Of a stretch of DNA of 64,000 nucleotides, positions 29,979-32,900 are shown in pieces (positions within the stretch are counted from its first letter, which is position 1; every line of letters begins with the position of its first letter). This stretch comes from Hypomesus transpacificus. Lineage: Eukaryota; Chordata; Actinopteri; Osmeriformes; Osmeridae. Position numbers and translations under genes: made by a program. The notes below the pieces were generated by a model, which was given only the letters and a program-made list of their open reading frames with translations, was not told the DNA's origin and made no database searches. The stretch lies in the NCBI RefSeq assembly GCF_021917145.1, contig NC_061068.1:9365724-9429723 (forward strand), written 5' to 3'.

Positions 29979-32900
29979 ATGAAAATCGAGGAGGTAAAAA
30001 GCACCACGAAAACTCAGCGCATTGCGTCTCACAGTCATGTGAAGGGACTCGGATTAGACGAGGCCGGCAATGCTAAGCAGAGTGCGTCAGGTCTTGTGGG
30101 ACAGGAGACTGCGAGAGAGGTAAAGTTACTGTAGCTAGCTCTAGCCATGGGAATTTAGGAACTACTAATCAGTTAAACGTTTGCTATAATCTAGTTCAGT
30201 GGTCTTCAACCCTGGTCCTCAGGTCCCACGGTCCTGCATGTTTTTTCCCTGTTCCAGCACACCGATTCAAATTAATGGCTCGTTATTAAGCTCTGCAGAA
30301 GCCATGCAAACTAATGTTTTTTTCCCCCCCAACAACAAATAATTTCCCTGTTATAGGCTAATCTGCAATTGAGCATGTGCAGTTTCCAACTTCGAAAATT
30401 ACTGGAATTTTACAACCCTAGTTGTAGTCCTTTATCCCTATACATATGTGCCTTAATTCATTTCAGTTTGTGCCACTAGAGCTGTTACAAACGTCAACAG
30501 TTATTCAAAGTTATTCCTTAGCTTCATATGGTCAACTATTCTATGCAGTTCTTGCTTACTGTAGAAGCGGTAATTATAATATAATCACTTTGCCACCAGG
30601 CTTGCGGTATTATTGTGGAACTGATCCGCTCAAAGAAGATGGCAGGCAGGGCAGTGTTGCTCGCTGGGCCACCTGGAACAGGAAAGGTACTGCACAAGAT
30701 CAGATTGTTCATTGCTCACAATGTCCCTCATTTGTTCCCTGATTCTCACATGCATTTTATTTTAACGTGACCTTCTCCCCCAATACTTCACCCCACTCTC
30801 TCCATTGCAGACAGCAATGGCCTTGGCCATGGCACAGGAGCTGGGTAACAAGGTGCCTTTCTGCCCCATGGTTGGAAGTGAGGTTTACTCTTCTGAGATC
30901 AAGAAAACGGAGGTGCTGATGGAGAACTTCAGGAGAGCGATAGGTGAGACACTGTTCAGGAAAGTGATAGGTGAGACACTGCTCAGGAGAGCGATAGGTG
31001 AGACACTACTCAGGAAAGTGATAGGTGAGACACTGCTCAGGAAAGTGATAGGTGAGACACTGCTCAGGAGAGCGATAGGTGAGACACTGCTCAGGAGAGC
31101 GATTGGTGAGACACCTCAGGAAAGTGATAGGTGAGACACTGCTCAGGAGAGCGATAGGTGAGACACTGCTCGGGAGAGCGATAGGTGAGACACTGCTCGG
31201 GAGAGCGATAGGTGAGACACTGCTCAGGAAAGCGATAGGTGAGACACTGTTCTCACACACAAGGAACATGGGCTGCATGGAGATCATTCAAATTGCAATA
31301 TTTTAATGTGGGATGCACCAAAATGAGTTATTGGCCGAAACCGAACATAATGAAGCAAAAACTGAAGAAAAAAAAATGTAAGCTGGAAAAGGAGATTTGT
31401 GTGTCATTGCTGACACTGGGAAGGAAGGCTTGAGTGGGGGAGAAGGAGTTTGTCTGGATGTTGACGTTACCTGTCATAGGGTAGGAAATGGAGCTTGGGT
31501 TGACAGGGTCGGTCATCAACACTCTTGCCCCACCCCCAGGAGAGAATAGGTGCGTGTTAGAGGGAGGGAGTGGGGTACATTCTCAGGATGTCAACACGCC
31601 GTCTGATAAGAGCAGCCTGAATGACAACCTCCCCCTCTAGAGCATGACTCACCCCCCACCAGACCAGGACCAGGCCTGACACACCACCTGTGGCCCACTC
31701 GTACTCAGAGGCAAGAGTATCCCAAACAAGAGCTACCGTGTGGTCATGTTACATAGAGAGAATGCGTATTATAGTCAACTTCTATATGCTATCATGTGTG
31801 TGCTATGGCCTCCTGTAGGCCTGCGTATCAAGGAGACCAAGGAGGTATATGAGGGCGAAGTGACGGAGCTGACCCCCTGTGAGACAGAGAACCCAATGGG
31901 AGGCTACGGAAAGACCATCAGCCATGTCATCATTGGCCTGAAGACGGGCAAGGGCACGAAGCAACTCAAGGTCAGTCTGGGGCATATACAGTTGTCATCA
32001 TTAAGTGAGGGTTGAAGCTTAAAATATAGGCGACTGGTTAAACTAATCTTGTCATACAATACCCAGTTTAGCTCAGTATCAGTAGTATTTTTCTACAGTA
32101 GTTTTGCATCAAGATTTTGTATAGTATTGTGCATACATTGTACATTTGTATAATGTATTGTGGTAATATCATTTTGTGACCCAATGTATGGAGATACATA
32201 TGATATCCTGAGGTCCTTGCCAATAACCCAGCCCTAATGGTGTTCTGTAGCTGGATCCCAGTATCTATGAGAGCCTCCAGAAGGAGCGAGTGGAGGTGGG
32301 AGATGTCATCTACATAGAGGCCAACAGCGGAGCTGTCAAGGTACCCCTGCACCACTGTCAAACGCACACACGCATTCAAGTATGCAACTATGTACGTCTT
32401 TGTGATACACACAGACACACACACACTGACATAGAAAAATTGCTTAGGAACTTGAGTTGCATTATGTGGGCATAGGCATATGGACTGTGTACTCTTCCAG
32501 TTCCAGTACACTTTTCAGATAACGAGTTCTTTGTCCTGTGCCTGTCCTTCTCAGTCCTTCGTACCAGCTCTGTTTCATCTCCATCAGCCCTCCGTGACGG
32601 CTGTGTTTCATCTTTCTACTGTACGCTCCCTCATTCCTGCAGCCCTCCACAGCGCGTCCCTATTCCACCTTTATCTTTCAATCTCTCCCCCCTCCCTTCA
32701 ATTCCTCTGTTCCAGCACAGGGCCTCGTGGCCTGTGTTGACCGTGTGTCGAGGGCTGCTTTAATCAGTGCAGGTGGGCTTAGGGGGCAGTGGGGCTACAT
32801 TTGTTGCTGTTGACAGCCCCCTTAAGGAGCCCCCTTCACACATGCTTTCATCCCTCTGCCCCTTGCCCTCTCCTCCTACTTCAGCTGGCACAGACTGTAC

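Follow-up and report, generated by a model that had tools for sequence, protein, structure and literature searches.

A 27-bp minisatellite across the exon 3/intron 3 boundary of ruvbl1 in Hypomesus transpacificus repeats a predicted splice donor 12 times

Intron 3 of ruvbl1 in Hypomesus transpacificus, located within a 64,000-nucleotide stretch of contig NC_061068.1 (the window, from whose first letter all positions are counted), starts with 12 GGTGAGACA donors in a row. This raises the question of whether such a series serves the splicing of the gene or is carried along by the repeat to which it belongs. A preliminary description of this DNA had proposed a ladder of in-frame insertions or a decoy array that could buffer splicing. 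Our analysis confirmed that the 12-donor tandem array at the end of exon 3 is real; most likely, it arose by chance as the repeat expanded and is no regulatory device.

The ruvbl1 gene and its neighborhood

The host gene is intact. Its coding region (29979..34321, plus strand), identified by the joined frame, a PDB match, and PF06068, comprises 11 exons that join to 456 amino acids and a stop in the variant whose exon 8 ends at 33689, which is the full-length conserved coding frame that characterizes RUVBL1 (TIP49). Exons 1 and 2 lie at 29979-30119 and 30600-30686; exon 3 at 30811-30943; exon 4 at 31819-31970; exons 5, 6, and 7 at 32251-32340, 33055-33204, and 33310-33373; exons 8 and 9 at 33491-33689 and 33772-33874; and exons 10 and 11 at 33965-34056 and 34162-34321. 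In a PDB comparison, all 201 residues encoded by exons 1 to 5 aligned with RuvB-like 1 (E = 5.9e-119). Joined through the first donor of the series, exons 3 and 4 encode the conserved ...NFRRAIGLRIKE..., and the junction NFRRAI-G-LRIKE is gap-free in the one alignment considered, that with the top-scoring RuvB-like 1 chain. Donor 1 (30944..30949) therefore gives the conserved protein, and the boundary had rightly been assigned to exon 3 and intron 3. An open-access literature search for a RUVBL1 domain boundary found nothing.

A genome-wide search with PF06068 gave 14 matches, eight on contig C9 (ruvbl1 in this window), five on C5, which we take as ruvbl2, and a weak one of 27 bits on C32. No processed ruvbl1 copy recording the spliced junction was evident among these 14 matches. 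The donor of ruvbl1 exon 9 also falls inside a tandem repeat: it coincides with the opening GT of a (GT)13 microsatellite at 33875-33900.

Across the window there are 66 open reading frames of at least 110 amino acids, 10 of which were submitted to Pfam. Besides TIP49, these matched the eEFSec (25055-25918), Rft-1 (two frames, 37344-37796 and 38143-38619), and C1-domain (45702-46319) families, all on the minus strand. At 23399-23863, several reading frames on each strand run open through a 48-bp minisatellite of 9.7 copies (99% matches); two of these frames had no Pfam match.

Structure of the repeat array

The 12 donors start at 30944, 30971, 30998, 31025, 31052, 31079, 31106, 31131, 31158, 31185, 31212, and 31239, exactly as first described, with a step of 27 bp from donor to donor, bar one of 25 bp between 31106 and 31131. 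Tandem Repeats Finder reports a repeat at 30929-31249 with a period of 27, 12.0 copies, 91% matches, and a score of 530. With 12 units of 27 bp, the array belongs among the minisatellites, i.e., repeats of several head-to-tail units of roughly 10-100 bp. Unit comparison sets its boundaries at 30928..31249 on the plus strand, flanked by a further TTC at 31250-31252; the span of 30931..31252 given earlier covers the same array with its boundaries shifted.

The unit reads YTCRGGARAGYGATAG/GTGAGACACTG (the slash marks the splice site), with the alternatives AGA or AAA, GCG or GTG, and CAG or CGG among copies and rare further variants. Each unit is made of 16 bp derived from the exon end and 11 bp derived from the intron start, the last 16 bases of exon 3 (30928-30943) being the exonic half of unit 1. 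GTGAGACA is kept in all 12 copies. The longer TAG/GTGAGA, which had been ascribed to every copy, occurs at 11 of the 12 donors, but copy 7 (31106) has TTG/GTGAGA instead. Unit 7 also lacks 2 bp: the spacer between donors 7 and 8 reads ACCTC where the others read ACTGCTC, which places the loss at about 31114..31115, its exact place being ambiguous.

This variation bears on whether the array could be an expansion made by the assembly, with one or few copies in the true genome. The units differ at 6 of 27 positions and by the 2-bp loss, in several combinations, and an artefact would tend toward identical copies; the array also sits on a 22.7-Mb contig. We consider an assembly expansion very improbable.

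Searching the genome (437 Mb in 376 contigs) at the DNA level, by a method that skips simple repeats and scores the best candidates only, recovered the array and a single further place, C23:2417295-2417472, which matches positions 100-275 of the 401-base query at 71% identity. The unit there differs, and we rejected it as kin of the ruvbl1 array, judging it to be another 27-bp minisatellite. A candidate for a further, older copy of this unit deeper in intron 3, at 31537 (CAGGAGAG-AATAGGTG), was likewise rejected and taken as chance: it was equalled by 23 of 1,000 dinucleotide shuffles, and 8 of 227 stretches of the window, its own included, scored at least as high.

Donor strength and reading frames across the copies

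Pairing with the 5′ end of U1 was computed by ViennaRNA duplex. It amounted to -9.8 kcal/mol at 11 of the 12 donors and -8.1 kcal/mol at copy 7. Of the remaining nine ruvbl1 donors, the five scored ranged from -5.6 to -7.4 kcal/mol, and -9 kcal/mol was reached by 1.5% of the 3,882 plus-strand GT sites in the window. Two GT sites in intron 3 outside the array gave -8.6 and -8.4 kcal/mol, so U1 pairing alone does not single out true donors. With 12 predicted donors, the exon end has an alternative tandem 5′ splice site in the usual sense of at least two plausible donors near one exon end; the donor in the copied unit is strong and differs little from copy to copy. The predicted RNA fold of the array did not stand out (z = -1.31; 12 of 100 shuffled sequences folded at least as well), and on this comparison we rejected a special RNA structure.

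We took the acceptor before 31819 as the partner of every donor. Donors 2 to 7 (30971..31111) then add 27, 54, 81, 108, 135, and 162 nt free of stops and would insert 9, 18, 27, 36, 45, and 54 residues, in nine-residue blocks such as GETLFRKVI. Frame translation thus bears out the earlier claim that the first seven donors keep the reading frame. Donors 8 to 12 (31131..31244) lie beyond the 2-bp loss and are therefore one base out of frame; they lead to early stops, after 193 residues for donor 8 and 183 residues for donors 9 to 12. That the loss puts the last five donors out of frame had been recognized in the preliminary description; its position, given there as copy 7, is more precisely the spacer after donor 7.

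These frames would permit a ladder of isoforms, in which donors 2 to 7 are used meaningfully and one to six blocks are inserted after NFRRAI at the exon 3/exon 4 junction. A 27-bp unit yielding six stop-free blocks speaks for such a ladder, as does the U1 pairing of donors 2 to 6, which equals that of donor 1, donor 7 being weaker. However, the six-block frame is open because one 27-bp unit is open, and the corresponding junction is the one aligned gap-free with the best RuvB-like 1 chain. Moreover, the conservation comparison across the 12 copies gave no sign of selection on them as donors, with 1 of 9 donor positions variable versus 5 of 18 in the rest of the unit (Fisher p = 0.63; a weak test, as the 12 copies are related). 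By shifting the frame of the five intron-proximal donors, the 2-bp deletion also counts against a functional ladder. In human coding sequence, in-frame tandem sites are reported to be selected against, the more so in structured regions (PMC2279118), although those sites (3, 6, or 9 nt) are shorter than the 27 bp found here. We regard the isoform ladder as quite improbable.

The same array could instead act as a decoy or buffer or tune expression, with U1 particles binding along it, donors 8 to 12 diverting some of the transcripts into frameshift and decay, and the copy number setting the level of ruvbl1. Twelve strong predicted donors spaced 25-27 nt apart and the early stops from donors 8 to 12 fit this proposal. 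SRSF1 is said to activate the intron-proximal 5′ splice site, which also fits, but hnRNP A1 is said to act oppositely, on the intron-distal one (both in passages of PMC5585400), and nothing indicates selection for the 2-bp loss. We therefore hold a decoy or tuning role to be unlikely, and the function proposed earlier, as ladder or as decoy, is unsupported by these comparisons. The equal U1 pairing of 11 of the 12 donors is nonetheless a point against regarding the copies as mere passengers: the intron-proximal site here would be the frame-shifting donor 12, and the spliceosome may not ignore copies 2 to 12.

Origin of the array and donor-bearing repeats elsewhere in the genome

The array is probably an ordinary minisatellite expansion that started by chance across the exon 3/intron 3 boundary. 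We infer that the first step was a duplication, through slippage or unequal exchange, of a 27-bp segment between an exonic TTC (30928..30930) and an intronic TTC (now at 31250..31252), and that a later T-to-C change in the unit start was followed by a spread of variant units, by unequal exchange, to 12 copies; the 2-bp deletion would have struck copy 7. Consistent with this route, TTC stands at the start of units 1 and 2 and after unit 12, and the other 10 units start with CTC; a duplication from TTC to TTC would leave such ancestral edges. As a trace of slippage, the 3-bp TTC microhomology is suggestive only. Lying at the head of intron 3, copies 2 to 12 would be spliced out silently whenever donor 1 is used, and donor 1 would supply most of the functional mRNA. 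Donors 2 to 7 may, at low use, give minor isoforms with nine-residue inserts, and donors 8 to 12, if used, would give frameshifted transcripts open to decay.

An expansion by chance agrees with the density of minisatellites in this genome. We counted arrays with units of 12-70 bp and at least four copies, some of which are compound simple repeats. Leaving out the ruvbl1 region, a sample of 18 stretches (180 kb) held 19 arrays covering 3.1% of bases, and the window held eight covering 1.9%. Because minisatellites are this dense, an array falling on a donor would not be improbable.

We searched the genome for AGGTGAG repeated three times with 8-38 bases between. There were 9,484 matches (4,352 and 5,132 by strand) versus 2,005 (753 and 1,252) for the reversed motif in the same pattern, these being overlapping matches and not arrays. 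If the single reversed control is fair, this 4.7-fold excess is unlike plain chance placement. Grouped by position, the roughly 100 places listed form 10 arrays, all of them within the first 2.56 Mb of contig C1. Eight of these have a readable flank; in the other two, the flank is masked (L038) or the sequence ends within the array (L041). A coding exon was found at one of the eight, that of a septin (PF00735, E = 4.7e-13; Septin-8 6upr, E = 1.4e-28). The other seven readable flanks showed no evident exon, and fragments of four of them (L031, L032, L033, and L036) had no Pfam match.

At the septin gene, the exon ends in GGAGCAGAG/GTGGGG and is followed by copies that mostly read TAGAG/GTGAGG every 30-31 bp, with a last step of 51. 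The donor occurs about 20 times, with three copies beyond the exon donor in C1:127900-128500 and 16 more in C1:128500-129500, and the array is split by about 500 bp of putatively SINE-like sequence. The last copy, AGGAGCAGAG/GTGAGG, still holds the exon end, so the septin unit also spans the exon/intron boundary. A TAG, however, closes its inserts inside their first 30 nt, and this counts against selection for a ladder at ruvbl1 as well. An array with closed inserts favors a mutational cause and indicates that an open ladder is no common feature of such repeats.

Splice donors might recurrently seed minisatellites in this genome, at ruvbl1, at the septin gene, and by extrapolation perhaps at 100 or more other places, which would make donor multiplicity common and fast-evolving. 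We put this forward tentatively, as a rather doubtful generalization and as a lead, not a result, since one array in eight is too small a number to establish an excess, and a single reversed control does not suffice. If true, it would constitute a mutational route to more splice sites, tying minisatellite instability to isoform variation.

Comparison with known systems

The ruvbl1 transcript offers a natural experiment on the choice among equal 5′ splice sites. As 11 of its 12 near-identical donors are equal in U1 pairing, position is almost the sole variable, and the split between in-frame and frame-shifting donors provides a readout. Among the passages returned by an open-access literature search, none reports a donor repeated 12 times in situ, although several related arrangements are described.

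Within human segmental duplications, minisatellites of about 30 bp, a length like that at ruvbl1, are reported to have expanded where exons meet introns and to be able to change splicing (PMC2812944). Those internal tandem repeats lie in recent primate paralogues, in part with transcript support, and make new introns, whereas at ruvbl1 a conserved gene carries repeated predicted donors with no new intron demonstrated. In fission yeast, a 24-bp unit containing AGGT was duplicated in tandem, and an intron arose that spans the duplicates (Zhu and Niu 2013, as described in PMC4974935). Both cases involve a short AGGT unit in tandem and the repeated splice signals that result, but the yeast unit is exonic and produced a new intron, whereas at ruvbl1 an existing donor was copied. 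More generally, passages of PMC2891723 and PMC4974935 describe intron gain by tandem duplication or intron sliding. As at ruvbl1, the tandem duplication of a splice motif gives alternative boundaries; the outcome in those cases is a new intron or a shifted boundary, unlike anything demonstrated here.

A further likeness is with tandem alternative donors, whose sites are 3-9 nt apart in the accounts of PMC2423196 and PMC2279118. They too are close competing donors that either keep or shift the frame. The ruvbl1 series differs from them in that it comprises 12 near-identical donors, 25-27 nt apart, that arose via repeat expansion.
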